This document shows positions 7,723 through 35,512 of a DNA stretch of 36,074 nt, piece by piece (the first letter of the stretch is position 1; each line of letters starts with the position of its first letter). The notes under the pieces were generated by a model that ran no database searches, was not told the origin of the DNA, and saw only the letters and a list, made by a program, of their open reading frames with translations. A program made the position numbers and the translations under genes. Source of the DNA: Lachnospiraceae bacterium (GTDB taxonomy: Bacteria > Bacillota > Clostridia > Lachnospirales > Lachnospiraceae); assembly GCA_022799355.1 (NCBI GenBank), contig JAAWOG010000036.1:1-36074 (forward strand). Reading direction: 5' to 3'.

Positions 7723-8742
7723 TTACACGCCTCTGCACCAGATAGATTTCTTCTGCTCCCATCTCTCACTTCTCCGCCGGCAAACCCACTCTGCCAGTTT
7801 CAGCCACAGATACCCGATCAGAAACCGCACCGCCAACGGAAAAAAGACCTGTTTGTACCATATTATATATACCGCCGCATATAGAAAACAGAATTTCATC
7901 ACCTCCTGCGCACGATATGCGAAAACCCTTCCCCGCCCTGCTCTTTTATACCTCTTCCAGTCCGCCAGAAAAGCCCCCGCCGTCGCATAGCGCTTCTCCC
8001 TCTCCGGTTTCAGGCAGCGCCTCACCGCCCGCCGCATTCCTTCCGGCATCCTGCTCATCTCCATCACATTCTCCGCCGCCGGACGGCTTTTCAGACTATC
8101 CTTCCCCTCCATTACGGCATACAGGACAGCGCCCAATCCGTAAATATCCGCCCGTTCATCCACCACTCTCCCCTCCCACTGCTCGGGAGCCGCATAGCCA
8201 AAGGTACCCACTCTCTTATTTCGGCATATCTCCTCCCCGAGCCGCACCGCCGCCCCCACATCCACCAGCCGCAGCGTTTTATCCGGCAATACCATAATAT
8301 TTTCCGGCTTCAAATCCCGGTACAGCACTTTAGGATTTCCGCTGTGGAGCTTATTAAGAAACTCCCCGAGCTGCACACCCCATTGATAGACCTGCTTCTC
8401 CGGTATCTGCCCATGAAGCGCCAGATATTCCTTTAAATTCTGCCCTTCCACATACTCCATGACAATGACGCCTGTGCCGTCCTCCTCCACCCAGGCATCG
8501 TAAACCGCCGGCAGCATCATAAAATTCTGCCTCCGAAGAAGCGCAACCTCCTCCTGAAACTGCTCCGTCACCTGTTCTAACACCTTGATCGCCACAAGCC
8601 GTCCCAGCCTCATATCCCCAGCCAGATACACTCTGCCCATACCGCCCTCTCCCAGAATCTCCTTTATCTCATACCTGTCAAACCAGATACATGCCTGACA
8701 GACTGCCTCCCGCTTTCTCTCCCCATACATTTTTTCCGTCAT
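7723..8742 (-). CDS. Membrane-anchored Ser/Thr protein kinase (Hanks type, no PASTA)
   Basis: A eukaryotic-like kinase that should transfer ATP phosphate to protein Ser/Thr. The start is set at ATG 8742 because AGGAGG lies just upstream; an ATG 24 bases earlier has no such site. In the 339-residue form the Gly loop is G-E-G-G-M-G-R-V-Y-L (31-40), the ATP lysine is in V-A-I-K-V (K53), the catalytic loop is Y-R-D-L-K-P-E-N and the APE region is Y-A-A-P-E-Q-W. The metal motif reads D-V-G instead of D-F-G and the HRD His is Tyr; both changes occur in active bacterial kinases. The C-terminus has two hydrophobic stretches (about 280-320) but no PASTA or other sensor domain. The phosphatase gene lies 58 bases upstream, so the pair is a reversible phosphorylation module; targets unknown. 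Confidence 0.9.
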   Translation of the reverse strand: MTEKMYGERKREAVCQACIWFDRYEIKEILGEGGMGRVYLAGDMRLGRLVAIKVLEQVTEQFQEEVALLRRQNFMMLPAVYDAWVEEDGTGVIVMEYVEGQNLKEYLALHGQIPEKQVYQWGVQLGEFLNKLHSGNPKVLYRDLKPENIMVLPDKTLRLVDVGAAVRLGEEICRNKRVGTFGYAAPEQWEGRVVDERADIYGLGAVLYAVMEGKDSLKSRPAAENVMEMSRMPEGMRRAVRRCLKPEREKRYATAGAFLADWKRYKRAGRGRVFAYRAQEVMKFCFLYAAVYIIWYKQVFFPLAVRFLIGYLWLKLAEWVCRRRSERWEQKKSIWCRGV

Positions 8743-8800
8743 CTGACCTCCTGATTTCACCACCATTTATTTATAAACTCCATGCCCCTTCCGACACCTC

Positions 8801-9568
8801 TTATCCCCCCGCGATCACTGCCGCCTGATTATCCTTCTCTCCCCGTTTCCTTCCCATATCCCCCAGCTTTACAAGCCTTCTTTCCAGTTGTTCCTCAGAC
8901 ATACTTCCGGAACTCCAAGCTCCTCTTTTTCTCCCAAAACTTACCGCCATCTCCTCTTTTTCCAAATGCCGCCAGAATCCGTCACTGCACAGCAGAAGCT
9001 TCTCCCCATGCCGCAGAAATCCCCGCCTCTTCTCCACTCCCTGCCAGGAAAAACTTCCGATGCACCTGCGAAGCACATGATTCCCCAGACTGTCATCCGT
9101 CGTCAGTCTTCTGCATCTTCTTCCGCCCCTTCCTCCCACCAGATACCCCCTGCTGTCCCCGGCATGAAAGAGCAGATATTTCACAGAATCCAAAAAGGGA
9201 CAGCACCAAAACGGATGCCTGCCGGACAAAAGCACCATCGTCACAGTCGTCCCCAGCCTGATCCCGCGCTCTTTCCCGTAACCCATAAGATATCTGTTGC
9301 AGTCATACAACATGCCCGTGCAGTCCCTCTCTATCCGCCTCCACCCATGACATCTTTTTATATGCTTCAAATACGAGCCATAAAACCAGTCCCTGACGCG
9401 CATCGAAACATAACTGCTGGCATACTCTCCCTCCTGCAGTCCGCCAATACCGTCACACACCACCAAAAGCGCCGCTTCCCGCCTGCCCATTGACACAATC
9501 TCCAGCGCAAGCGCATCCTGTTGGGAAGGCGCAAAATCTCCTTTATTAAAATAACATGATGAAACCAT
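8801..9568 (-). CDS. PP2C-family Ser/Thr protein phosphatase
   Basis: A metal-dependent phosphatase expected to reverse the neighbouring kinase. The 255-residue protein shows the PP2C motifs V-C-D-G-I-G-G, G-T-T-V-T-M-V, F-H-A-G-D-S-R-G-Y, L-T-T-D-D-S-L-G, L-C-S-D-G-F-W and a final D-N-Q-A-A-V-I; the aspartates that hold the two Mn/Mg ions are present. It is close to the family minimum length, with a shortened region after the C-S-D-G motif. ATG 9568 follows AAAGGAATCT. It is the first gene of the pair with the kinase downstream, and a promoter lies at 9667-9694. No signal peptide or membrane segment is evident, so it should be cytoplasmic. Confidence 0.88.
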   Translation of the reverse strand: MVSSCYFNKGDFAPSQQDALALEIVSMGRREAALLVVCDGIGGLQEGEYASSYVSMRVRDWFYGSYLKHIKRCHGWRRIERDCTGMLYDCNRYLMGYGKERGIRLGTTVTMVLLSGRHPFWCCPFLDSVKYLLFHAGDSRGYLVGGRGGRRCRRLTTDDSLGNHVLRRCIGSFSWQGVEKRRGFLRHGEKLLLCSDGFWRHLEKEEMAVSFGRKRGAWSSGSMSEEQLERRLVKLGDMGRKRGEKDNQAAVIAGG

Positions 9569-10764: not shown

Positions 10765-13065
10765 CTACGGCACCCCCTCAGATGGCTCCGCCGCAGCGCT
10801 TCCCCAGCGCCAGATCCTGAAAAGCCTCTCTCCCATTCTGCTCACGATCTCATTCGTAATCGTCCCTGCTTTTTCCGCGATCTCATAAGCCGTAATCTCC
10901 TCGCTGCCATCCCTCCCTATGATAACGGCCACATCCCCCGCCTTCACGCTCCCGATTCCCGTAATATCCACGATCGTCTGATCCATACAGATCCGCCCCA
11001 CCACAGGCGCACTTCTTCCATGTATCAGCACCCGCCCCCTGCCGCCGGAAAGACTCCTTGGCAATCCGTCCGCATAACCAATGGCAAGCACCGCTATTTT
11101 CCGATCTTCCTCTGCCTTATACTCCAGTCCATACCCGGCGCTCTCCCCCTGATACAGTTCTTTTACGGCAGCTATCCTCGCTTTCACCGACATAACCGGC
11201 ATAAGAGCCGCTTTCGCCGCATATCTCCTTGCTCCCTCCCCGTCACCAAACAGCCCATAGAGCGCAATACCGCACCTCACATAATCTCCGCCCAGCTCCG
11301 GGTAATTGATCAGCCCATAACTTGCCAGCAGATGGGTTTTTATGCCGGGAGAACCCTTATCTTTCCGCAGACGCTTCTCTCCGCCTCCCGCCTGCGTTTT
11401 CCGATATTCCGCAATCTCATAAAAAAGCGCCGCCTGCCGCTTTGTAAAAGCAAGTTCTGCCGGCTCTCTCGTCTCATCAGCGCACAGATGCGTATAAATC
11501 CCTTCCACCCGCAGATTTTTCAGCCGGAAAATCCTGCCGATCTCCTTTTTCTTTTCCGCCCTCTCCCCCAGCCTGTGCATCCCGGTATCGATCTTGATAT
11601 GTACCCTGATCTTTTTGCCGTAACCGTTTAATTTTTTTCCGTAAGCATAATCTACCACGGTCTGGATCAGATTATATTTCCGCAATAAAAAAAAGTCCTC
11701 CGGATGCGTATAACCGAGCACCAGTATCTCCCCTGTAATACCGCCCTTCCGAAGTGTTACCCCTTCCGCCGCACACGCCACACAGAATGCGTCAATACCC
11801 ACTTTCTGCAATTCTCCTGCGACAAGTATCGCCCCATGGCCGTAAGCATCCGCCTTCACCGCAGGCATAAGACGCTGTCCGGTGGCAAGCAGGCTCTCCA
11901 GTATCCGCACATTCTCCATAAGATGTTCCCGGTCCAGTTCGATCCAGGCGCGCCCTTTTGCCAAATGGAAGCCTTCCTTTTTGCCTTTTGCCGCCGCAAT
12001 TCTCCCTTCCATCACTGTCGCCGCGCAGCCGCAGCCCAGGGACACCGCGCAGACAGCCAGATAATGCAGCAGAGAATTTTCCACAAGCAGGCTTTCCAAA
12101 TGAACTGCCTTTGCCCCGCCCCTCACCAGAATAATGCAGAGCGGATGTAGCAGATAAATCCACATCGAAACCCTCCGAAACCATTTCACCGGCGCGATCC
12201 TCAGAGATACCAAAAGCCGGAACAGAAAAAACATCACGGCCGGCAGCATCACATACATGCTGTCATGCCTCTGCATTTTCAGACCGTGAAGCAGTAATCC
12301 CTCCGTCGTCATCAGTCCAAGGCAAATCCCGAAACATGCCATATCCGCAGCGATCATACCTCTGTGTTTCTTTTTTGTAGCCCGAGTCTCCTCCCTCCCC
12401 GGCATACGCCCCCTCTCCCGCCTGTCTTTATGCTCCATACGAGATATCCCCGCTCCCATCACCAAAAACAGGGGCGCGTAAAACAAGCCGTTTCTTGTAT
12501 GGGAGGAGACGGAAAACAGCAGTTCATACGCCGATTTCAAAGCCGGAATCTGCTCCGCCGCGCCGTAATAACTGTCCCCGAAAAGCCCTGCCAGATACAA
12601 CAAAAACGACACCAGTGTCATAACAAAAAACGGAAGCTTTTGCCCCAAAAGCAGGACAACTGCCACGCCGAGCATCGCCGCTGGCAGATACCACAGATGA
12701 TAAAACGTCCCCTCTATCAGTATCATCCGCAGCAATTCTCCTGCCCCCGCCTCCCCGAGCTGCCCCGCATATATATTGACGGGCAGATAAAGCAGCATTG
12801 CCGCGCCGTACAGGATAAAAAGTTTCCTGAACAACTGTTTCAGCGGACGCAGATCCATAGAATGCCGAAACAGATACTGCGGCAGCAGAAAATATCCCGT
12901 CACCATAAAAAAGAACGGTACCGCCACCCTCGCAAACACTCTTGTCAGGATAAAATCCGCCTCTCCGCCAAAGGAAGCAAGAGGCGATGTATGGATCGCC
13001 GCCACCAAAAAAGCCGCCGCCATCCTGAAATAATCCATCCCTCCATATTGTTTTTCCATCGCCAT
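10765..13065 (-). CDS. vanT: Membrane serine/alanine racemase VanT (VanG/VanC type)
   Basis: Makes D-Ser (and D-Ala) from the L-form for the VanG ligase. Two parts are visible. Residues about 5-345 are an acyltransferase-3-like membrane domain (F-R-M-A-A-A-F-L-V-A-A-I-H-T-S-P-L and about ten hydrophobic segments). From about 375 on is a PLP-dependent alanine-racemase domain, with the PLP lysine in A-V-K-A-D-A-Y-G-H-G and C-terminal G-R-I-C-M-D-Q-T-I-V-D-I. This fusion is specific to VanT proteins of van C, E, G and related clusters. ATG 13065 has AAGGGGA upstream; a GTG at 13113 overlapping the vanXY stop (GTGA) is an alternative that adds 16 residues. It is the last gene of the van cluster and is translationally coupled or nearly so to vanXY. 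Confidence 0.93.
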   Translation of the reverse strand: MAMEKQYGGMDYFRMAAAFLVAAIHTSPLASFGGEADFILTRVFARVAVPFFFMVTGYFLLPQYLFRHSMDLRPLKQLFRKLFILYGAAMLLYLPVNIYAGQLGEAGAGELLRMILIEGTFYHLWYLPAAMLGVAVVLLLGQKLPFFVMTLVSFLLYLAGLFGDSYYGAAEQIPALKSAYELLFSVSSHTRNGLFYAPLFLVMGAGISRMEHKDRRERGRMPGREETRATKKKHRGMIAADMACFGICLGLMTTEGLLLHGLKMQRHDSMYVMLPAVMFFLFRLLVSLRIAPVKWFRRVSMWIYLLHPLCIILVRGGAKAVHLESLLVENSLLHYLAVCAVSLGCGCAATVMEGRIAAAKGKKEGFHLAKGRAWIELDREHLMENVRILESLLATGQRLMPAVKADAYGHGAILVAGELQKVGIDAFCVACAAEGVTLRKGGITGEILVLGYTHPEDFFLLRKYNLIQTVVDYAYGKKLNGYGKKIRVHIKIDTGMHRLGERAEKKKEIGRIFRLKNLRVEGIYTHLCADETREPAELAFTKRQAALFYEIAEYRKTQAGGGEKRLRKDKGSPGIKTHLLASYGLINYPELGGDYVRCGIALYGLFGDGEGARRYAAKAALMPVMSVKARIAAVKELYQGESAGYGLEYKAEEDRKIAVLAIGYADGLPRSLSGGRGRVLIHGRSAPVVGRICMDQTIVDITGIGSVKAGDVAVIIGRDGSEEITAYEIAEKAGTITNEIVSRMGERLFRIWRWGSAAAEPSEGVP

Positions 13066-13109
13066 AACTTCCCCTTTTCCGCTCTGCTTTCTGCTTTTCA
13101 ATCCTTTCT

Positions 13110-13736
13110 TCACCTCCGTCCCCCATCATACCGCCGGCCATGCGAAAGGCGCCCCAGCATCTCAATATACTCTTCCAGACAGACGCCGTACTTCTTCATC
13201 CTCTCCGCATGAAGCGTTCCTACATATCTGAAATGCCACGGTTCCTGAGAAATCCCTGTGATCTCCTCCTTCGCCTTCTGATAGCGCTCAATAAACCCGT
13301 AGGCCGCCGCCCTCTCCCGAAACCTCTGGCAGATTCCCTCATAGGGAAAATCAGGACAGATAAAATCCACCTCTTCCTTTTTCAGTCCAAGGTCAATGGC
13401 CAATCCCGTCTGATGCTCACTGCATCCCGGCAGTGCTACAAATTTTCGGGTAAATTCCTCCCCGTTTTCTTTCAGAGAACTGTCAAAAATGTCCTGCTGT
13501 TCTCTCAGAGACCGCCATCCGCTGACAGGTACGATCCACTCCCAGCCTTTTATCTCTTCCATCAGTGCGGAGAGATGTATAACCGCCTGTTCTTTCAAAA
13601 GAATCTCCGGCGCCTGCGGATGTACCGGATAAAGCCCCTCCTTCGTCTCCTCCTCTATGTATGGGTGCGATGCATTCACCAAAACCAGTTGTTCCGAATA
13701 TATATTATTATTGTTACAATATACAAATCTGCTCAT
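13110..13736 (-). CDS. vanXY: D,D-peptidase VanXY (VanY family)
   Basis: A zinc D,D-dipeptidase/carboxypeptidase that hydrolyses D-Ala-D-Ala and removes terminal D-Ala from pentapeptide precursors, so that only D-Ser-ended precursors are used. The M15/VanY zinc motif S-E-H-Q-T-G-L-A-I-D is complete, with the third ligand in E-P-W-H-F-R-Y. Q-D-I-F-D and S-G-W-R-S are also family features. I use ATG 13736 (MSRFVYCNNNN), the first ATG in the frame, giving 208 residues. A TTG at 13841 inside the ligase gene would add a very basic 35-residue extension. The ribosome site is imperfect (GGAAGG 13 bases, GGGAG 2 bases upstream). No signal peptide is seen, consistent with cytoplasmic VanXY rather than membrane VanY. 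Confidence 0.88.
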   Translation of the reverse strand: MSRFVYCNNNNIYSEQLVLVNASHPYIEEETKEGLYPVHPQAPEILLKEQAVIHLSALMEEIKGWEWIVPVSGWRSLREQQDIFDSSLKENGEEFTRKFVALPGCSEHQTGLAIDLGLKKEEVDFICPDFPYEGICQRFRERAAAYGFIERYQKAKEEITGISQEPWHFRYVGTLHAERMKKYGVCLEEYIEMLGRLSHGRRYDGGRR

Positions 13737-13800
13737 TGCTCCCGTTTTTCCTTCCCGCTGTTTTACTTCCTCCTGATATCCTCTTTTTCCTTCCCGCCAA

Positions 13801-14916
13801 TCATAGCGCCTCCTCCAAAACAGCCGAAATAATCTCCTCAAAGGAGAGCCCCGCCGCCTTCATCATATTCGGAAAACGGCTGTGCGCCGTAAAACCGGGA
13901 ATCGTGTTGACTTCATTAAAGACAATCTCCCCCTCATCTGTCAGAAACATGTCCACCCGGGCAAAGTGCCTGCAGTCAAGCGCCCGGTATATGATCTTCG
14001 CCGTCTCTTTGATTCTATCCGCGGTCTCCTCCGGAATCCTTGCCGGCACATGGATCGCCGAGGTTTTCAGCGTATACTTCTCCGTAAAGTCAAAAAAGCC
14101 TTCCGCCAGTTCGATTTCATCCACCTCGCCCACCATAAGCTTTTCTGTCCCCAGGATTGCGCAGCCCACTTCAAAACCTGAAATACACTCCTCCACGATG
14201 ATCCTTTCATCGTAGGCAAAGGCAAGGTTCACCGCCCTTTGCAGCCCGCTCTCATCGGATACTTTCGTAATGCCGTAGGAAGATCCTGCCTTCACCGGCT
14301 TTACAAACAAAGGATAGCCGATCTTTTCCGCCTGCCGGCATATGGTATGTAAGTCAGTGCCCCTGCTGCAGACACAGGAATCCGGCACCCGGACGCCGGC
14401 CTCTCTCACCATCCTGTGCGCCCTGTCCTTGTCCATACAAAGGGCTGAGGAGAGCACACCGCAGCCTGCCACCGGAATACCTGCCAGTTCAAAAAGTCCC
14501 TGCACCGTGCCGTCTTCCCCGTTTCTGCCGTGCAGAATCGGAAATACCGCATCGATTTCCAGCCGCTCCACCCCTCCCGTACATCCGGCATTTTCTCCGC
14601 ATGCCGCTCCTCCCATACGTCCGGCATTTCTTCCAAATGCCGCGTTTTCCCTGCGCAGCAGCAAACTGCGCTCGCCGCGGTTTAACGATACGGTCACCGG
14701 AATACACGCCTTCTCCCCGCACCAACTGTCGTCCGCAATCTTTTCCGTATCTCCCGTGTAATAAAACCAGTCCCCCGTGTGGGTAATGCCGATCGGCACC
14801 GGCTCATACTTCTTTTTGTCCATATGATCAATCACCGCCCGGGCGGATTGAAGGGACACTCCGTATTCCGGCGAACAGCCGCCGAAAAGTATCGCTATCC
14901 GTTTTTGTTCTTTCAT
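13801..14916 (-). CDS. vanG: D-alanine:D-serine ligase, VanG type
   Basis: An ATP-grasp ligase that makes the D-Ala-D-Ser dipeptide for peptidoglycan precursors of low vancomycin affinity. The 371 residues start at ATG 14916 after GGGAGG. Visible motifs are F-G-G-C-S-P-E-Y-G-V (11-20), L-H-G-R-N-G-E-D-G (128-136), K-P-V-K-A-G-S-S-Y-G-I-T, the omega-loop T-E-K-Y-T-L-K (about 274-280), and C-terminal F-N-E-V-N-T-I-P-G-F-T. The EKYT motif and the stretch around it agree with VanG/VanC-type D-Ser ligases rather than VanA/B D-Lac ligases or Ddl. It is about 20 residues longer than classical VanG (349 aa), because a 12-residue Gly/Ala/Asn unit is duplicated in tandem at 92-103 and 104-115. It is followed by vanXY and preceded by vanS at a 53-base gap. 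Confidence 0.93.
   Translation of the reverse strand: MKEQKRIAILFGGCSPEYGVSLQSARAVIDHMDKKKYEPVPIGITHTGDWFYYTGDTEKIADDSWCGEKACIPVTVSLNRGERSLLLRRENAAFGRNAGRMGGAACGENAGCTGGVERLEIDAVFPILHGRNGEDGTVQGLFELAGIPVAGCGVLSSALCMDKDRAHRMVREAGVRVPDSCVCSRGTDLHTICRQAEKIGYPLFVKPVKAGSSYGITKVSDESGLQRAVNLAFAYDERIIVEECISGFEVGCAILGTEKLMVGEVDEIELAEGFFDFTEKYTLKTSAIHVPARIPEETADRIKETAKIIYRALDCRHFARVDMFLTDEGEIVFNEVNTIPGFTAHSRFPNMMKAAGLSFEEIISAVLEEAL
14572..14643 (-). repeat. Two 36-bp in-frame tandem repeats inside vanG
   Basis: Two imperfect 12-codon units encode AAFGRNAGRMGG and AACGENAGCTGG, residues 92-103 and 104-115 of the ligase. They fall just before the D-A-V-F-P-I-L-H-G core strand. The repeat length is a multiple of three, so the frame stays open. 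Confidence 0.8.
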
Positions 14917-14969
14917 AACTTTGTCCTCCCGCTTTCTTTTCTTTTTTGTTTTATTGAAATATCCGTCTC

Positions 14970-16166
14970 TTATCCCGCCGGAATCCGTATCACAAACGAA
15001 ACCCTGTTATCCGCGCTCTTTGCCTCTATGGAGCCGCCGTGGAGCCGTATAATCTCCTTTGCAATGGCAAGTCCCAGCCCGGAGCCTCCGGTATAGGAAT
15101 TTCTGCCCTCATCCAGCCTGTAAAATTTTTCAAAAATATCCCGCAGTTTCTCTTTCGGTATCGTATCTCCTTCATTGTGAAACACCATTTCTACCGCCCC
15201 CCCGTTTTCCGCCGCAGATACCACGATCTCCGTATCGGGAAAGCTGTAAGCCGCAGCATTTCTCAAAACATTCTGAAATACCCGCGCCAGTTTATCGGAA
15301 TCGCCGAACACTCTCAGATTTTCATCCGCCTCAAGCCTGATCCGGTTATTTCTCTCAGACAAAAGCGGGGAAATCTCATCAATGAGCTGCACCAGCATGT
15401 AATACAGGTCTATCGACTTCTTCCGCAGAGTGATCTGCTGCAGATTATATCTGGTAATTTCAAAAAATTCATTGATCATCTTTTCCAGGCGGTACGCCTT
15501 TTCCAGCGAAATGCGCACATACTTCTCTTTCTGCTCAACGGGCAGATCCGGCACTTCCACCAGCAGATTCAGATACCCGATCACGGAAGTCAGAGGCGTG
15601 CGGATATCATGCGCCAGATACATGACCAGTTCATTTTTCCGCTGCTCCGCAAGTTTTGCCTCCAGTGTCCTTTGCTCTAACGTTCGCTTCACCTGGTTCA
15701 GTTTCTGCTCCGTGGCATACAACTCCGAGGGCAGGCGGATCTCCTCCTCATTTTCCAGAAGAGCGTTTACCCCCCGGTTGACCAGATCAAAATATTTTGT
15801 GAAACCGTTCAGCAGAATCCGCAAAAGCAGCAAAAAGATAACACTCACCGAACCCATCCAGATCAGAAACGCATTGTTGCGGAATATATGCTGATAGATT
15901 GAGAGCGCCGAATCATAATCGATCCTCCCCACCCGCCGTATCAGCGCCACAGTCAGGTCCGCTCCTTTGTGAAACCAGACGATCTTATAAATATTAAATA
16001 TGCAGAAGACCGCGAGAATCACTATCTTCATCAGCCGCAAAAAAATTTTCAGCCTCAGATGGGAATAATCACTGTGAAAAGTCTTTTTGTCCTTCCTCCT
16101 ATGTCTCCATTTTGTAGCCAACACCCCAAACCGTTCTGATATATTTCGGATCTTCCGCCGTGTCAT
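14970..16166 (-). CDS. vanS: Sensor histidine kinase VanS (VanG-type cluster)
   Basis: A membrane sensor kinase expected to phosphorylate VanR in response to glycopeptide. There are two membrane segments (about residues 42-62 and 98-118) around a short outside loop. They are followed by an H box with A-H-D-I-R-T-P-L-T-S-V (the phosphorylated His), an N box R-V-F-Q-N-V-L-R-N-A-A, and a G box S-G-L-G-L-A-I-A-K. The start is uncertain. The first in-frame ATG (16166) lies 68 bases inside vanR. The only good ribosome site, AGGAGGAAGG just after the vanR stop, is not followed by ATG, GTG or TTG in this frame for 50 bases. By homology the real N-terminus should be near D-Y-S-H-L-R-L-K-I, so a rare start codon or an upstream start is used. 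Confidence 0.9.
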   Translation of the reverse strand: MTRRKIRNISERFGVLATKWRHRRKDKKTFHSDYSHLRLKIFLRLMKIVILAVFCIFNIYKIVWFHKGADLTVALIRRVGRIDYDSALSIYQHIFRNNAFLIWMGSVSVIFLLLLRILLNGFTKYFDLVNRGVNALLENEEEIRLPSELYATEQKLNQVKRTLEQRTLEAKLAEQRKNELVMYLAHDIRTPLTSVIGYLNLLVEVPDLPVEQKEKYVRISLEKAYRLEKMINEFFEITRYNLQQITLRKKSIDLYYMLVQLIDEISPLLSERNNRIRLEADENLRVFGDSDKLARVFQNVLRNAAAYSFPDTEIVVSAAENGGAVEMVFHNEGDTIPKEKLRDIFEKFYRLDEGRNSYTGGSGLGLAIAKEIIRLHGGSIEAKSADNRVSFVIRIPAG

Positions 16167-16803
16167 TCATCTTCTCCCTCAAATGCCTGATGTGCACCGT
16201 AATGCTGTTGCCCGCCTTGCTGTAATACTCATCTTTCCAGAGTTTGTGGAACAATGTCTCCGTGCTGACCACCTCGCCCCTTTTTTCCATCAGGACACGC
16301 AGGATCTCAAACTCCGTGGGCGTCAGCACAAGCTCCTTTTCATGGAGCAGACAGGTATGTGTTTTGACGTTCATAACAAGTCCCGCATGTACCAGCACGC
16401 TCTCCTCATCCCCTTTTTGTGACTGGTTCTGATTATACTTTTTATACCTGCGGAGCTGAGCCTTCACCCGCGCCACCATCTCCAGCGGCCTGAAGGGTTT
16501 TGTGATATAGTCATCCGCCCCCAGCGAGAGCCCGGTGATCTTATCGATCTCCTCATCCTTTGCCGTCAGCATGATAATCGGATACGTGTGCTTCTCCCGA
16601 ATGCGCTGACATAGCGCAAAACCGCCGATATCCGGCAGCATAATATCCAGGATCGCAAGATCCATCTCTTCCTGCTCCACACAGGCAAGCGCCTCCTGCC
16701 CCGTGTTGCATTTATATATTTTATAATTCTCATTTTGCAGATAAACTTCTATCAGGTCCGCAATCTCCCTCTCGTCATCCACCACAAGTATTTTCTCGGA
16801 CAT
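16099..16803 (-). CDS. vanR: Response regulator VanR (OmpR/PhoB family)
   Basis: A 234-residue transcription activator for the van genes. The receiver domain has the acidic pocket V-V-D-D-E near residue 9, the phosphoacceptor D53 in A-I-L-D-I-M-L-P-D, T80 and K102 in I-T-K-P-F. The C-terminal winged helix includes L-T-P-T-E-F-E-I-L-R-V-L and V-W-G-V-G-Y-K. ATG 16803 is preceded by GAGGGATGG; a GTG at 16845 in the same frame lacks support. It is the first gene of the cluster. A direct repeat of GTTATGCA with 21-bp period lies 31-59 bases upstream (16834-16862) and could be its own binding site. Confidence 0.93.
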   Translation of the reverse strand: MSEKILVVDDEREIADLIEVYLQNENYKIYKCNTGQEALACVEQEEMDLAILDIMLPDIGGFALCQRIREKHTYPIIMLTAKDEEIDKITGLSLGADDYITKPFRPLEMVARVKAQLRRYKKYNQNQSQKGDEESVLVHAGLVMNVKTHTCLLHEKELVLTPTEFEILRVLMEKRGEVVSTETLFHKLWKDEYYSKAGNSITVHIRHLREKMNDTAEDPKYIRTVWGVGYKMET

Positions 16804-16833
16804 TGTTCCATCCCTCACATTTCCCTTCTGCCG

Positions 16834-16862
16834 GTTATGCAGCACTTTCTATTTGTTATGCA
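16834..16862 (-). promoter_or_regulatory. Direct repeat upstream of vanR, candidate VanR site
   Basis: The 8-base word GTTATGCA occurs at 16834-16841 and 16855-16862, exactly 21 bp apart, or two helical turns. OmpR-type regulators bind such tandem repeats. No strong -35/-10 pair is evident beside it, which fits an activator-dependent promoter. Confidence 0.45.
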
Positions 16863-18843: not shown

Positions 18844-18887
18844 GTATTTTAACGGAAAATAAGCCTCCTTGAAAAAGGGAATACTCT

Positions 18888-21800
18888 TCACCTCTTCCCC
18901 CCGCCTTTAAAGGCAGCCACAATCTCCCTCTTCGTAAGAGATTTCGTCCTGCTGTCCATCACTGCGTCTACCAGGCGCTCCAGAGCATCCCTGTTGCTGC
19001 TGATAATCTCCGCAGCTTTCCGTGACTGCTCCGACAGTATCCGGCCGACCAGATCCCTCGCTTTTTCATTGTTGTGAAATTCTTTTTCCGGAATGACGGC
19101 AAGCCCGAACTCTTCTTCATACATTCCCAGGCTACATACCATCCCCGCAGCAAGCTGCGTTGCCCTCTCCAGGTCAGCGCTTGCACCGGAGGACAGGCCA
19201 TATCCGCACACGGTCTCTGCGGCTCTTCCTCCAAGACACATGCAAATCATCTTCAGCATGGATTCTTTTGTGCCGTCTCCGGCAGGACCATTCGCCACAT
19301 AACCACCGTAGCTGCCCCTGGCCACAACGCTCATATAATTCGGCAAGTTATTATGAGCCAGACTGACCAGGGCATGTCCGGCTTCATGGTATGCGGTGCG
19401 CCTCACTGTTTCCAACGGCACGCCGCCCCTGACCTCCCCCATTATCACCTCGTCGAAGGCCTCGTACAGCCGGATATGGTCTGCCGGAATGCCGCTGCGA
19501 ACAGCTTCCCGCAGCGCCGTCTCCATGATATTCTCAAGCTTCGCAAAGGATATCCCTTCAAAACGGGCAACGATCCCTTCCATTTCGCCGGACGGAATCC
19601 GGAATCTGTCGCTGTGTTTTTGGAGCAGCCTTTCCAACATCCATCTGATCCCTTCCCTGTCCGGAAGCGGAATCGTAAATACCCTGTCAAAACGCCTTAC
19701 CAGAGCACCATCGATGGTCTGTCCCAGGTTGGTTGCCGCCATGACAAATACAGGGCTGTCATCGGTTTTCCGAAACCCGTCCATCTCCGTCAGCAGTGCA
19801 TTCAATACGGAATTGTCAACCCCCGCCTGCCGGCTGCCGCCGATCGTGTCCGCTTCGTCAATAAACAGCACCGCCGGGGCGTACTTCCTTGCGGTCCGGA
19901 AAACGCGGCGCACTTCGTCAGGTCCCCTGCGCTTCAAAAGATCCGCCTGAACCTCCAGAAAACTCACGCCGGATTCCGTAGCCACCACCCTTGCAAGCGA
20001 TGTCTTGCCTGTCCCCGGCCCACCTGCCAGCAGCACGCCTCTCGGCACTCTGAGCTTATTATGCCGGAAACTCCGGGGATTCTTCAGGTAATTGATAAAA
20101 AACTCCAGTTCACTTTTTACCGTATCTGCCACATAAATATCCCCCCAGTGCGTGTCCGGCTTCATGTCCGCCGACAATAGGAGGTCTTTATCCTCCGCTT
20201 CCACGGCCGTTTCCAGCCTGAAATTGCAAAAGATGATGTACCCGGTCCTTTGGGGCACGTCTAACTCCTGTTTCAGATCATATGCAATCTTCTGGTGGCG
20301 AAGAGAGAGTTTTTCCACCGCCCGCTGGCAGCAGACATCCACATACACGGACGGAAGCCCCGCCCGGAGCGTCTCCCGCCGTATAAAACCTTTCGCACCG
20401 CGGCGGCAAAGTTCTCCCCTCTCACTGCCTGAGTAGGTATATCCTCCTCCATATAAAATATATACCTGTATGTTGTCCTTATATTCCTCTCTTATGCGGG
20501 AGAACACCCTGCCGCCTTCCGTCCGGCAGTCCACAATGCTCAGATTCCCCTCCTGTTCTTTCATACCGTATTCATAATCGACGACGGCCAGGATTACATT
20601 CTCCTCCTGGAGAATCTTCATAAACTCTTCCGGAACCACCGTCTTTCGGAGCCGGACATTATTTTTCGTAAATTCCCCGACAGATATCTCCTCCGCCTCC
20701 CCAAAGACCGCAATGGTACAGTCCCTCTCTCCTGAATAGAGCTGAAAGATTTCATCCGTCGCGCCCGAAAAGTCCTGTTCCCATACAATTTTTCGGATAC
20801 TTTCCTGCTGGTTCAGCCCCGTCTTCTCATCCGCCAGTGTCAGGAGGGAAAGCAGCGCCCTGTCAATGAGCTTTCCTGCAAGCACGGAAGCATTCCTGGC
20901 GTCCGTCTTCCCTCCCATAGAGTACAGAGCGGTCCTGGCAAGAACATCCTGTCCGGTGCTCATATCGTACCCGTATTTATCCTGCAGCAGCGCGGTCTGT
21001 CTCTCCAGATCTTTCTTTATGATTTCCAGAATGGCGTCCGCCCGCAGATGGTTGAACATAAGAACCGTATGCGAAAACATCCTCGAGACAATTTCCGGCG
21101 GAAAAAAGGGAGTCCCCTTATCCGGTTTCGTATCCTTTCTCAGGGCGTCCATAACGACGGCATCCGGCAGCAACGTCAGATTCTCGTTTTCGGCACCCTG
21201 GTACAGCTGCTTTCCGGCATTGGTGGTCAGGATAACAATCGTGTTCCGAAAATCCACGTTTTCATTATAGAACTTGTCGATGCAGCTTCCCTCGTCCAGA
21301 ATCTGGAGAAAAAGCAGAACCACCTCCGCATGAGCCTTTTCAATCTCATCAAACAACAGCACGCACCTGGGGTTCTTACGGACAAAGGATGTCAGCACCC
21401 CCGGCTGTGAATTTTTCCAGGTATTTTCAAATCCGACAAGTCCCGCCACATCATTGTTCCCCGAATAAGCAGACATATCAAAACGCTTATAGGGAATCTT
21501 CAATGCGTCTGCCACAATCTCCGCAACAAACGTTTTCCCAACCCCCGGCGGTCCCGCAAACAGGTACGCATGTCTGGGTTCTCTTTTTTTATGATTCGTA
21601 CCAGCCTTCAGTTCCTTATGGAACCAGGCGTTCCGGAATTGGTCAATCACCTCATCCTGCCCCACGACTTTTTCATATAATTCCTGAGCGATAGCGTCCG
21701 CCTCTGTTTTTATATACTGCACCGATGCCGGGCCTTCTTCCGTCCTGGTTTCCGTTTCCAGGTCCGGATTCCGGAAGGCTCCGGATACTTCCAAAAGTTC

Positions 21801-22592
21801 GTGACGGTAAATCGGGTTTCCCGTCAATTCCCGGTACAGCCCTGTGACCGTATGGTCTCCCTGCCTGATAAAACGTTTCAGCGCCAGATAGGATTCCCCG
21901 GGCGCCTGCAATAAAAGATGATAATCATCCTGATCCTTTTTTGCTTTTGCTTTGGCACGGTAGATGAGTTCCGTCAGATGCGCCTTATCCATGCCATATT
22001 CTTCAAACCGTTCTTTCAGTCTGGCATAGTCTTTCGACTTATGCCAGATATCCCGAACGGAAAGAGTCAACACATTTTCTTCATCCTCCCAGTCTACCAT
22101 CTCGTCGTCATCGTCCCTGTTGACGGGAAGTATCTTCTCTTCATCCAGGACCAGATAAAGCAGCGCCGTGTAGACTGAGGCGCAGCTATAATGAAGGGGC
22201 CATTTTACCAGTCCGCTATTGATAAAGGAACGGGGATCTGAAACACATCCTGTCAGAACGCCGATCCAGGGGGAATTGCCATAAACATCCGTTTCCAGTC
22301 CCACCCGCGCGAAAAATTCCCGCCAGGATTCCAGTTCTTCCCGCAGCTCCTTTTTCTCGGCATCCCGCGGGTTCTCCTCTCCCGGAATATTCCCCAAGTA
22401 TTCCCCCGCCAGTTTCCGCGCCCTGGCAAGGCTCCATTCTACGGTCTCGTCTTCCTGTTCCCGTTCCGTCATATAGGTAAAGCCACGGTACTGTGCGCCG
22501 CCAAATCCCCGGACCTGGCTTTCCGCTTCCTTCCATGTATCGTAAATTCCCGGCCTGCGCCCTTTCCTTACTGCATATATCTTTTTCTTCAA
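18888..22592 (-). CDS. RNase H1-N / ClpB-like AAA+ / receiver-like / FtsH-like AAA+-M41 multidomain protease
   Basis: A 1234-residue ATP-driven protease of unusual build. Residues 4-40 (Y-A-V-R-K-G-R-R-P-G-I-Y...G-F-G-G-A-Q-Y-R-G-F) match the RNase HI N-terminal (Cauli_VI) hybrid-binding domain. Residues about 320-600 are ClpA/B D2-like: Walker A G-P-P-G-V-G-K-T (about 347), Walker B L-L-F-D-E-I-E-K-A-H (about 415), V-D-F-R-N-T-I-V-I-L-T-T-N. Residues about 630-740 resemble a degenerate receiver (V-V-D-Y, V-Y-I-L-Y-G-G-G, R-G-A-K-G-F-I). Residues about 800-1000 are FtsH-like: G-G-P-G-T-G-K-T (about 854), L-F-I-D-E-A-D, A-T-N, R-R-F-D-R. The M41 peptidase follows with H-E-A-G-H (about 1067) and third zinc ligand Asp in S-A-D-L-E-R-A-T. 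No membrane segment is seen, unlike FtsH. TTG 22592 is the start, 8 bases after AAGGAG. The CPBP protease gene is 12 bases upstream. Substrate and role unknown. Confidence 0.9.
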   Translation of the reverse strand: MKKKIYAVRKGRRPGIYDTWKEAESQVRGFGGAQYRGFTYMTEREQEDETVEWSLARARKLAGEYLGNIPGEENPRDAEKKELREELESWREFFARVGLETDVYGNSPWIGVLTGCVSDPRSFINSGLVKWPLHYSCASVYTALLYLVLDEEKILPVNRDDDDEMVDWEDEENVLTLSVRDIWHKSKDYARLKERFEEYGMDKAHLTELIYRAKAKAKKDQDDYHLLLQAPGESYLALKRFIRQGDHTVTGLYRELTGNPIYRHELLEVSGAFRNPDLETETRTEEGPASVQYIKTEADAIAQELYEKVVGQDEVIDQFRNAWFHKELKAGTNHKKREPRHAYLFAGPPGVGKTFVAEIVADALKIPYKRFDMSAYSGNNDVAGLVGFENTWKNSQPGVLTSFVRKNPRCVLLFDEIEKAHAEVVLLFLQILDEGSCIDKFYNENVDFRNTIVILTTNAGKQLYQGAENENLTLLPDAVVMDALRKDTKPDKGTPFFPPEIVSRMFSHTVLMFNHLRADAILEIIKKDLERQTALLQDKYGYDMSTGQDVLARTALYSMGGKTDARNASVLAGKLIDRALLSLLTLADEKTGLNQQESIRKIVWEQDFSGATDEIFQLYSGERDCTIAVFGEAEEISVGEFTKNNVRLRKTVVPEEFMKILQEENVILAVVDYEYGMKEQEGNLSIVDCRTEGGRVFSRIREEYKDNIQVYILYGGGYTYSGSERGELCRRGAKGFIRRETLRAGLPSVYVDVCCQRAVEKLSLRHQKIAYDLKQELDVPQRTGYIIFCNFRLETAVEAEDKDLLLSADMKPDTHWGDIYVADTVKSELEFFINYLKNPRSFRHNKLRVPRGVLLAGGPGTGKTSLARVVATESGVSFLEVQADLLKRRGPDEVRRVFRTARKYAPAVLFIDEADTIGGSRQAGVDNSVLNALLTEMDGFRKTDDSPVFVMAATNLGQTIDGALVRRFDRVFTIPLPDREGIRWMLERLLQKHSDRFRIPSGEMEGIVARFEGISFAKLENIMETALREAVRSGIPADHIRLYEAFDEVIMGEVRGGVPLETVRRTAYHEAGHALVSLAHNNLPNYMSVVARGSYGGYVANGPAGDGTKESMLKMICMCLGGRAAETVCGYGLSSGASADLERATQLAAGMVCSLGMYEEEFGLAVIPEKEFHNNEKARDLVGRILSEQSRKAAEIISSNRDALERLVDAVMDSRTKSLTKREIVAAFKGGGKR

Positions 22593-22604
22593 TTTTCTTT
22601 CTCC

Positions 22605-23633
22605 TTAACCCTCTTTTTTCCGAAACTCTTTGGCTAAAATAAATACGCCGTACAAAACGCCGTTAAGCAAAAATGCCGCCGGTATCATTTCCCATGTCAC
22701 CGCCTGATTCTCCAGCACCTCCGTGGAATACTCATTCGCCACCAGCAGGATCAGATTATTGTTCAGAAAGTGCAGGATCGTAGGAACCCAGATATTTTCC
22801 GTCTTCAGGTAAGCCCAGGCAAAAAAGATGCCCAAACCGACGCAGCCAATGATCTGTGAAACGGTCATGATCAGTCCCCTATCCGGTGTGGTGTAGTAGA
22901 AAAAGTCCAGGAATATATGCCACAATCCCCATACCACACCGAGAAGCAGGACGCCGCGCCTCATGCCGAACCTTTTCTGAAGGATCGGCTGCAGATAATA
23001 TCTCCACCCGTACTCTTCCCCGAAAAAGGGTGCAAAGGAGATCACAAAATTGATCGGCATGGCAATCAGATACCCTAAAGCCATCGGATTCGCCAGAATC
23101 TCCGGCACCATATCCGCTTCCCCTTCGATCACATAGCTGACAGCCGCCCTGCCAAAGTAGATCACCAGAAAAACAAGTATACAGAAAAGAGAAGCTTTCC
23201 AGTTTTTCCATGTCAGCCCGTATTCCTCCCGCCTCTCCTTACCGGAAATAAGCAGAGTGATCCAGCACAGGATGCTTGCGATGATCATCACAAACTGCGA
23301 AATCAGCGACCATATGGAAAGCGTCTGTCCGTTTATCGATAACGGTTCCCCCGGCGTCGTGACGGCAAGTACACAGCAGATAACCATCACGGCAGAGGCA
23401 GCCAGAAAGCACAGGTAAAACCATCTGGGCAGCAGCCTCTCTTTCCACTGTGTCACCAGATAGGCAAGCATAACGCCGGCTGCCGGATAAAACATCTGCG
23501 CACCCGGAAATACGCTCATCTCTACGGGTATTGTACTGCCGTACCAGGTCACGATTCCCATCACGTAAGTCAGGCCATACGCTATGAGGAGAAAAATAAT
23601 CAACTGTTTTTTTGTCTGATTCTGTTTTGTCAT
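22605..23633 (-). CDS. CPBP-family intramembrane glutamic endopeptidase
   Basis: A 342-residue membrane protein with about eight hydrophobic segments and the full CPBP (CAAX/Abi) motif set: F-F-G-E-E-Y-G-W-R (EExxxR, about residue 205), W-G-L-W-H (about 238) and L-H-F-L-N-N-N (about 292). Relatives cleave prenylated or membrane substrates, process peptides, or act in bacteriocin self-immunity. ATG 23633 follows AAAGGAAAATG. It is the first gene of a two-gene unit with the large AAA+/M41 protein 12 bases downstream, so the two are very likely co-transcribed. This suggests that a membrane substrate could be cut here and then unfolded and degraded by the partner, which is inference. No clear promoter was found upstream. 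Confidence 0.92.
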   Translation of the reverse strand: MTKQNQTKKQLIIFLLIAYGLTYVMGIVTWYGSTIPVEMSVFPGAQMFYPAAGVMLAYLVTQWKERLLPRWFYLCFLAASAVMVICCVLAVTTPGEPLSINGQTLSIWSLISQFVMIIASILCWITLLISGKERREEYGLTWKNWKASLFCILVFLVIYFGRAAVSYVIEGEADMVPEILANPMALGYLIAMPINFVISFAPFFGEEYGWRYYLQPILQKRFGMRRGVLLLGVVWGLWHIFLDFFYYTTPDRGLIMTVSQIIGCVGLGIFFAWAYLKTENIWVPTILHFLNNNLILLVANEYSTEVLENQAVTWEMIPAAFLLNGVLYGVFILAKEFRKKEG

Positions 23634-23768
23634 GTTTTCATTTTCCTTTCGTTCTATCCTATGTTTTTGTTTCTGTTTTTATATGATATGCACCAGGCAC
23701 ATAAAAACCCGTATTATTTTGTGAGCAATCCGAGCCCCCCTTCCGGCCGGTGTCAGCGCCGGCTGCTC

Positions 23769-23821
23769 AGCCGATAAGCTGAACTGTTACGCCGGAACAG
23801 TAACAGTTCAGCCTTTCGGCT
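23769..23821. repeat. Large extragenic hairpin, 22-bp arms
   Basis: Arms 23769-23790 and 23800-23821 match at 20 of 22 positions, with a perfect 13-bp core GCTGAACTGTTAC / GTAACAGTTCAGC and a 9-base loop. A third copy of the 13-base core lies at 23904-23916. There are no genes in this interval. It looks like a dispersed REP-like element or a strong bidirectional terminator between the divergent CPBP and ribU units. Confidence 0.8.
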
Positions 23822-23832
23822 ACACTGTTACT

Positions 23833-23877
23833 GAATCCGCCCTATTTTAAGTTCACCTACGGTGAAAGGGCGGATTC
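23833..23877 (+). terminator. Nested hairpin followed by TATTTT
   Basis: Outer arms GAATCCGCCCT (23833-23843) and AGGGCGGATTC (23867-23877) are perfect. Inside is a second perfect hairpin TTCACC-TAC-GGTGAA (23852-23866). On the plus strand TATTTT follows, so it could end transcription, but no plus-strand gene precedes it. It is probably part of the same repetitive element. Confidence 0.45.
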
Positions 23878-23944
23878 TATTTTCCCATCACACATTTTTA
23901 TATGCTGAACTGTTACCCGCAACATGCCTTAAAATCTCCGTATA

Positions 23945-23973
23945 TTGACATCCCTTCTTCACCATGTTATACT
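23945..23973 (+). promoter_or_regulatory. Promoter of the FMN riboswitch / ribU transcript
   Basis: TTGACA (23945-23950) and TATACT (23968-23973) are 17 bases apart. The start point would be near 23980, about 20 bases before the riboswitch aptamer. Confidence 0.8.
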
Positions 23974-23997
23974 CTTCCCGACAACCAAATAGCTATC

Positions 23998-24138
23998 ATG
24001 TCTTCAGGGCAGGGTGACTCTTATGAAATATCCGTTTCATAAGCCAGAATTCCCGATCGGCGGTGACAGTCCGCGGGCGCGAAAGCGCGGGGTTTGGTGA
24101 AATTCCAAAACCGACGGTATAGTCCGGATTAAAGAAGG
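23998..24138 (+). ncRNA. FMN riboswitch (RFN element)
   Basis: The conserved RFN blocks appear in order: TCTTCAGGGCAGGGTGA, then AATTCCCGATCGGCGGTGA, AGTCCGCGGGCGC, GGTTTGGTGAAATTCCAAAA, CCGACGGTATAGTCCGGAT and the closing AAAGAAGG, which pairs with the start to form P1. The aptamer binds FMN and turns the downstream riboflavin transporter down when FMN is plentiful. Between the first and second blocks is a longer variable stem (24018-24042). Confidence 0.96.
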
Positions 24139-24308
24139 TGTATTGAAATTGTCAGAAAAACTCTGACTGTTTGTTTATGCACTCTTTTTTTGTCCAAACG
24201 CTCTGTTGACATTTTCGATACACCTCCGCAGCATTTTCCGCTATATCCGGGGCCGGAACACTCCGCTATGTCCCGATATACGGCAGTTTTCCTTAATGCC
24301 TGCGGCAC

Positions 24309-32911: not shown

Positions 32912-32935
32912 CGCTGCATAAACAGCGCCGTATTA
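32912..32935 (-). terminator. Likely terminator of the NACHT gene
   Basis: On the minus strand the stem ACG-CGCTG / CAGCG-CGT (with a small internal loop) closes a TTTATG loop and is followed by TATTTTCT. It overlaps the end of the NACHT gene and lies just before the marR promoter. Confidence 0.55.
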
Positions 32936-35473: not shown

Positions 35474-35512
35474 AAGTACATCCCCTCTCATCTGATGAAT
35501 ATTTTTTGTCTA

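Follow-up and report, generated by a model that had tools for sequence, protein, structure and literature searches.

AAA+ proteases usually find their substrates through degrons or adaptors. In FtsH, an FtsH-type AAA+ module is followed by an M41 peptidase with an HExGH motif and a distal Asp, and FtsH-type pore loop 1 has the form aromatic-hydrophobic-Gly. Clp unfoldases partner with ClpP, while receiver domains control AAA+ rings or proteases in NtrC1, NtrX and RssB; a hybrid-binding domain (HBD) is known from RNase H1. We have analysed a stretch of 36,074 nt from a Lachnospiraceae bacterium (contig JAAWOG010000036.1; the whole stretch is called the window below), in which a single gene (18888..22592, minus strand) encodes a protein of 1234 aa with, in this order, an HBD, a helical domain, a ClpB-D2-like AAA+ module, a receiver, an FtsH-like AAA+ module and an M41 peptidase, as seen with Pfam, NCBIfam and AlphaFold2 models. 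Judged by sequence comparison, the core of this protein defines a family in Clostridia with two subfamilies, A with the HBD and B without it. We regard as new the family itself, the HBD in all scanned subfamily A N-termini, the linkage of RNase H genes to subfamily A and the CARF, RyR and TIR genes neighbouring subfamily B.

The reading frame has a TTG start and no internal stops; all features given here lie on the minus strand. The N-terminal HBD is a Cauli_VI domain (residues 4-43, 22464..22583; E 1.2e-14, 54.7 bits with a cut-off of 21). It is followed by a helical domain without a Pfam family (residues about 55-282, 21747..22430). The first AAA+ module (residues 299-579, 20856..21698) is ClpA/ClpB-D2-like: its AAA_2 domain (residues 342-504, E 2.6e-30, ClpA/B D2 type) has intact Walker A (K353/T354) and Walker B (E416) residues, which places it with the Clp/Hsp100 D2 type, and its pore-loop aromatic is W392. 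A receiver-fold domain (residues 623-766, 20295..20726) with invariant D672 and G732 separates it from the FtsH-like second AAA+ module (residues 808-1034, 19491..20171), which has Walker A K863/T864, Walker B D912/E913 and a shortened pore loop 1; the best Pfam AAA stretch, of FtsH/Cdc48 type, covers residues 853-976 (E 1.4e-44). The chain ends with a Peptidase_M41 domain (residues 1064-1216, 18945..19403; E 3.5e-27, 95.9 bits with a cut-off of 29.9) containing the zinc site HEAGH (residues 1069-1073, 19374..19388) and, as third ligand by homology, D1140 (19173-19175). Searches against PDB sequences agree with these module assignments. The original prediction, made from the letters of the sequence, had listed two distinct AAA+ Walker sets, one ClpA/B D2-like and one FtsH-like, an intact M41 zinc site, an RNase HI N-terminal hybrid-binding motif and a degenerate receiver-like stretch between the modules, all in one frame without a membrane segment; each of these elements was found again, in the order given. 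It also regarded the domain order as not known from any described protein, and we found no account of it in searches of the open-access literature, where absence is not proof.

The NCBIfam equivalog model FtsH_fam (TIGR01241) gives 269.4 bits against a cut-off of 600 (best stretch residues 808-1215), the ClpA model 161 bits against 993 (residues 299-579) and the ClpB model 121 bits against 1232. Since both the FtsH and the ClpA scores fall below their cut-offs, the window protein is strictly neither. Unlike FtsH, it has a shortened pore loop together with an extra AAA+ module, a receiver and an HBD, and it has no membrane segment: the maximum 19-residue Kyte-Doolittle value is only 1.37, so the protein appears to be soluble, without an N-terminal membrane anchor (the value is slightly above 1.6 in three of 81 relatives). 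With ClpA, ClpB and ClpC it shares a D2-type AAA+ with an aromatic pore loop, and subfamily B adds a weakly ClpA-like N-domain; it differs from them in having a single Clp-type module and a fused M41 peptidase instead of ClpP. IetA, of the anti-phage system IetAS, is a short AAA ATPase whose protease partner is a protein of its own. The best PADLOC match, to IetA, lies on the FtsH-like AAA (125.8 bits); the NCBIfam IteA score of 114.9 bits is far under the cut-off of 510. The vWA-MoxR ternary systems also combine an FtsH-type AAA+, two AAA+ modules per chain and a conflict-like setting; in those that contain FtsH, as described by Kaur et al. (2020, PMC7159879), MoxR and vWA proteins are the partners and the first AAA is of FtsH type but inactive. 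In the window protein the first AAA is of Clp type, with AAA_2 and intact Walker residues, and M41 is present. No MoxR or vWA protein is among the matches listed for 20 window proteins (ten with NCBIfam, ten with Pfam), a search confined to the window.

Full-length relatives at 80% and 58% identity have the same domain order, and remoter ones share the core; such homologs, with tabulated neighbours, were what the original prediction had called for as a check. A contig scan with the middle region (residues 455-805) gave 159 relatives among 178 pattern matches, and 80 of the 159, forming 78 loci with clostridial or unspecific labels, were kept, i.e. about half were examined. After dropping repeat loci (L003, L004, L010, L017, L023 and L092) and one identical protein, we had 89 distinct proteins, fragments counted. 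Two or more Walker A motifs are present in 86 of them, HExGH likewise in 86, and truncated frames account for most of the exceptions. Two members, L016 and L081_6, are divergent and of reduced length, and two contigs (L025 and L030) carry two family members each, ~2 and 6 kb apart. An artefact, in which two genes were fused by a sequencing or assembly error, has next to no chance of being the explanation: nothing was found in its favour, the order is identical in relatives from many assemblies with frames open throughout, and the family thus refutes it.

The alignment used for conservation has 81 members, namely the window protein and the contig-scan members without L091 and the short genome-search loci. 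The Walker A lysines are invariant (K353 in 80/80, K863 in 81/81), as are H1069, E1070, H1073 and D1140 (each in the 79/79 rows covering those positions), and the pore aromatic of the first ring at position 392 is kept in all 81. With its Pfam domain over the cut-off, HExGH and the distal Asp, the peptidase is assigned to M41. A motif check found no aromatic-hydrophobic-Gly pore loop 1 in the FtsH-like ring of the window protein: compared with most of subfamily B, the loop is short by 4 residues, and the aromatic is lost, so that the ClpB-like ring probably does the substrate pulling. A shortened loop is seen in 22 of 30 members of subfamily A, while in subfamily B 49 of the 50 members that cover this region have it at full length. 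This distribution would suit a remodelling or limited-proteolysis switch, in which threading by the FtsH-like ring is lost and M41 makes single cuts in a partner that the ClpB-like ring has remodelled. We consider such a switch very unlikely, given that the Walker residues of the FtsH-like ring are kept and that three members (L006, L035 and L040) have a second FtsH-like AAA in tandem, i.e. three AAA+ modules per chain, which argues that this ring matters.

The receiver-like stretch of the window protein has no Pfam match; across the 81 members, at E up to 1, Response_reg is found in 16 (best 5.1e-4) and OKR_DC_1_N in 29 (best 6.2e-5). The AlphaFold2 model of residues 592-812 (predicted local distance difference test, pLDDT, 88.6) has a receiver fold, (beta-alpha)5 with strand 3 ending in an Asp, and this Asp, D672, is present in 81/81 aligned members. 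While the fold is shared with NtrC1, NtrX and RssB, the domain here lies between two AAA+ modules, and a simple pattern search found the acidic pair after strand 1 in none of 30 subfamily A members. The Lys after strand 5 is absent in 22 of those 30, and the window copy has neither Lys nor acidic pair. A receiver gene of its own also lies near the protease gene at 10 of the 28 subfamily A loci counted; one representative is just above the Pfam cut-off, and as its profile comparison with the internal receiver is weak (hhalign probability 8%, E 0.0042), we claim no special kinship. Residues ~55-282 form a separate helical domain in the AlphaFold2 model of residues 1-300 (pLDDT 83.2); structure comparison gave it no confident fold match, which is not proof of a new fold.

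The HBD assignment rests on Cauli_VI over its cut-off and on the HBD fold of the predicted head, which matches the hybrid complex 3bsu. The window protein is the sole Cauli_VI match of its genome. In subfamily A all 29 scanned N-termini have a Cauli_VI HBD by Pfam (E up to 0.1), all 29 have counterparts of human RNase H1 Y29 and W43, and 22 have Arg at the K59 position. W43A and K59A/K60A are used as non-binding mutants of the human HBD in two reports (PMC6868509 and PMC10639055); the window copy keeps the W43 equivalent and has R and G at the K59 and K60 positions. The resemblance to RNase H1 covers sequence, predicted fold and the Y29 and W43 equivalents, while the difference is that the HBD here sits on a protease, and many relatives encode the nuclease separately, in a gene nearby. 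Stand-alone proteins like the HBD-bearing N-terminus of the protease, with the remainder missing, are also encoded at L006 (249-923) and near L033, L035 and L036.

Neighbour counts were made for 28 subfamily A loci (the window, L017-L042 and L092) and 50 subfamily B loci (L043-L094 minus L091 and L092, with the distant case L085 included); L008, L009 and L011-L016, which have short flanks, were omitted. By sequence similarity to three seeds, RNase H-like genes are present in the fetched flanks of 19/28 subfamily A loci vs 0/50 subfamily B loci. Pfam backs 17 of the 19, and 13 are above cut-off: eight with the RNase HII fold (L018, L019, L021, L024, L026, L029, L031 and L038) and five with RNase HI (L017, L025, L034, L039 and L092, the last via genome G021). 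Eleven of the 17 Pfam-backed genes are on the same strand as the protease gene and within 250 bp, and the RNase H type varies between close relatives in a FastTree tree, e.g. L031 vs L034. In both genomes checked, G006 (same genus, protein at 80% identity) and G021, the RNase HI beside the protease gene comes in addition to the usual one. In 41 related genomes (119 Mb) there are 46 matches to RNase HI and 40 to RNase HII; at that density the 512 kb searched here should contain ~0.37 RNase H genes. Finding 17 such loci has a probability of 9e-23 by a Poisson estimate and of 3e-10 by Fisher's test vs subfamily B, but because the loci are mutually related these values are nominal and serve as guides only. 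Two proteins of 336-339 aa encoded close upstream of the protease gene (L030 8996-10006 and L032 7743-8762) look RNase H-like by eye; they have no Pfam RNase H match and were not counted.

The presence of an RNase H gene beside many relatives hints at the removal of proteins from RNA-DNA hybrids. The best explanation, to which we give a probability of roughly 0.44, is that the window protein is a soluble, hybrid-tethered two-ring AAA+ zinc protease that works with RNase H and is perhaps related to genetic conflict. Computation supports the domains, the intact active-site residues, the receiver and HBD folds, the family, the RNase H linkage and the variable site; the hexamer, the order of its rings, hybrid binding, the substrate and the conflict role are inferred. 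Its subunits would probably assemble as a hexamer with two rings. By its N-terminal HBD the machine would be tethered to RNA:DNA hybrids such as R-loops or replication-primer hybrids, and possibly to double-stranded RNA as well; proteins bound there, such as an initiator, a stalled polymerase or an invader protein, would be pulled off and degraded. The ClpB-D2-like ring, with its aromatic pore loop, may act as the motor and feed the unfolded chain past the receiver belt into the FtsH-like ring joined to the M41 chamber, where the chain would be degraded, while the RNase H of the neighbouring gene, present in many relatives, would remove the RNA strand. In NtrC-type AAA+ proteins receivers switch ring assembly, and the receiver domain may do so here. 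If this is true, a conserved family with a hybrid reader on a protease and adjoining RNase H enzymes of different kinds would tie R-loop biology to regulated bacterial proteolysis, and a soluble chain that joins a Clp-type to an FtsH-type motor through a receiver would be a new case of unlike rings sharing work.

Several observations weigh against this explanation. At the window locus itself there is no RNase H near the protease gene, and the single RNase HI and single RNase HII matches of the genome are both on other contigs. In the window copy of the HBD, human K59/K60 are replaced by R/G, and Foldseek itself gives the match to 3bsu weak E-values (0.02 to 0.12, none <0.001). Subfamily B lacks the HBD and retains the rest of the machine; this and the missing RNase H at the window locus are among the weakest points. 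Among the RNase H-like neighbours, those at L028, L033, L035 and L036 combine Cauli_VI with an RNase HI match below the RNase_H cut-off, those at L037 and L041 have no Pfam RNase H match, and four of the eight with the RNase HII fold (L018, L019, L021 and L038) are encoded on the other strand, in one case 4.7 kb off; the relatedness of the loci belongs here too. With the pore-loop aromatic missing from the FtsH-like ring, two working rings are not certain. Finally, at the limits used, sequence searches gave no match to the whole protein in phages or plasmids: two scans of viral contigs found none, plasmids gave no match at E 1e-60, and of 26 matched phage records none covers 80% of the query, the 20 listed matching the FtsH-like half only. 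The original prediction had offered two readings. Both, a hybrid-guided protease and a two-ring unfoldase-protease, are kept and have gained from the HBD in 29/29 subfamily A N-termini, the Pfam-backed RNase H genes at 17/28 loci and the conserved ATPase and zinc residues, none of which proves the function. They need correcting on two points, the lost aromatic of the FtsH-like ring in this copy and the missing RNase H beside the window gene. The neighbours at L037 (7440-8690) and L041 (7452-8702) are 416-aa proteins encoded upstream of the protease gene, and in a single-pass search they are similar to a portion of L028's Cauli_VI RNase HI protein.

Comparison within the genus places the protease gene in a variable segment of ~5.1 kb (18849..23962, not assigned to a strand), between a KDPG aldolase gene and an FMN-riboswitch ECF transporter gene. 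In G002 the flanks are nearly joined, with 281 bp between the matched flanks and no counterpart of the segment; in G006 ~1.3 kb lies between them, again without a counterpart, and that genome has its own protease copy elsewhere; in G005 other genes, identified by their translations as an ABC transporter pair, a kinase and a regulator, fill the site. Since the site is near-empty or otherwise filled in same-genus genomes and the G006 copy is elsewhere, the protease gene behaves as movable cargo, and its position at a variable site suggests a task against, or for, mobile replicons, i.e. a role in conflict or in replicon maintenance. No direct repeats of at least 10 bases were found between the two border stretches compared. 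The other recognised gene in the segment, just upstream of the protease gene, encodes an Rce1/CPBP-like membrane protease (22605..23633, minus strand); as a system partner it was rejected, being present at 1/86 loci only. The FMN riboswitch (23996-24143), upstream of the ECF transporter gene, lies at the right border of the site.

The subfamily B neighbourhoods differ. Their classes, of which only representatives were compared with libraries, include a CARF-PDDEXK nuclease at 13/50 loci (PADLOC E 3.5e-32; Pfam Card1 below cut-off), RyR genes at 12/50 (Pfam E 6.8e-39) and, at 18/50, a protein without a Pfam match that has, by eye, apparent membrane segments and Rossmann-like motifs and whose C-terminus matches RyR structures (E 3.7e-8). 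TIR genes were counted at 5 loci, with a further 2 for a second type (3 and 2, respectively, by single-pass search), and PADLOC models for a CARF4 nuclease and for TIR proteins match such neighbours. One or more of these CARF-nuclease, RyR, membrane-RyR or TIR-like genes occur at 26/50 loci (25 by single-pass search), at 21 of the 26 on the same strand and within 300 bp. Loci L046, L050, L055, L057, L086 and others unite the protease with a CARF-PDDEXK nuclease, an RyR-ended protein, RyR and TIR genes; such clusters are possibly an undescribed signalling or defence cluster.

These neighbours support reading the protease as a defence effector, in which the N-terminal part would sense invader nucleic acid in subfamily A or a signal in subfamily B, and infection would be stopped by broad cleavage of host or phage proteins rather than by clearing of hybrids. 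The patchy presence of the protein, in 5/397 genomes of the family and 2/9 of the window genus, points the same way, and so do the near-empty site in G002 and the different cargo in G005. Further searches found the protein in 3/61 relatives, 5/392 genomes of the order and 3/398 of the phylum; all these counts include the own genome, and each search has its own threshold or query. The PADLOC matches of the window protein, though, are confined to its AAA parts, and the sole other recognised gene in the window insert is that for the Rce1-like protease, and we rate a defence effector as rather doubtful. Compared with the hybrid-tethered protease that we prefer, a wider picture of nucleic-acid-addressed proteolysis, tentative and somewhat doubtful as a whole, would go further: a hybrid-binding head, two unlike rings, a receiver switch and a dedicated RNase H would together strip protein and RNA from the R-loops or primers of mobile DNA, and other Clostridia would have swapped the head and wired the core to CARF, RyR and TIR proteins.

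Small YbjN-like proteins (named by eye; the representative has no Pfam match) are encoded at 26/50 subfamily B loci, and the N-termini of this subfamily show a weak match to the ClpA N-domain (E 0.0023). Together with the ClpB-D2-like motor and its aromatic pore loop, these would be expected of a general cytosolic stress protease or disaggregase whose N-domains serve as adaptor docks in the manner of Clp N-domains, with the HBD binding structured RNA or another protein instead of hybrids and the YbjN-like proteins as adaptors. Pfam finds no consistent family in the subfamily B N-termini, however, with Clp_N in only 1/49 (E 0.026), and the likeness being weak, a Clp N-domain identity is not claimed for them. 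A housekeeping protease would hardly be so rare or lie at a variable site, two further frames with strong M41 matches exist in the window genome, and the RNase H linkage would be left unexplained; a general stress role therefore seems unlikely to us.

Other genes of the window were noted in passing. A vanG-type cluster (10765-16845) encodes a VanT-like serine racemase, a VanG-like D-Ala-D-Ser ligase, a VanS-like kinase and a VanR-like regulator, and downstream of vanT lies a pair made of a Ser/Thr kinase and a PP2C-like phosphatase (7723-9568). A low-GC stretch (32933-35491) encodes a STAND/NACHT-like NTPase with C-terminal pentapeptide repeats.

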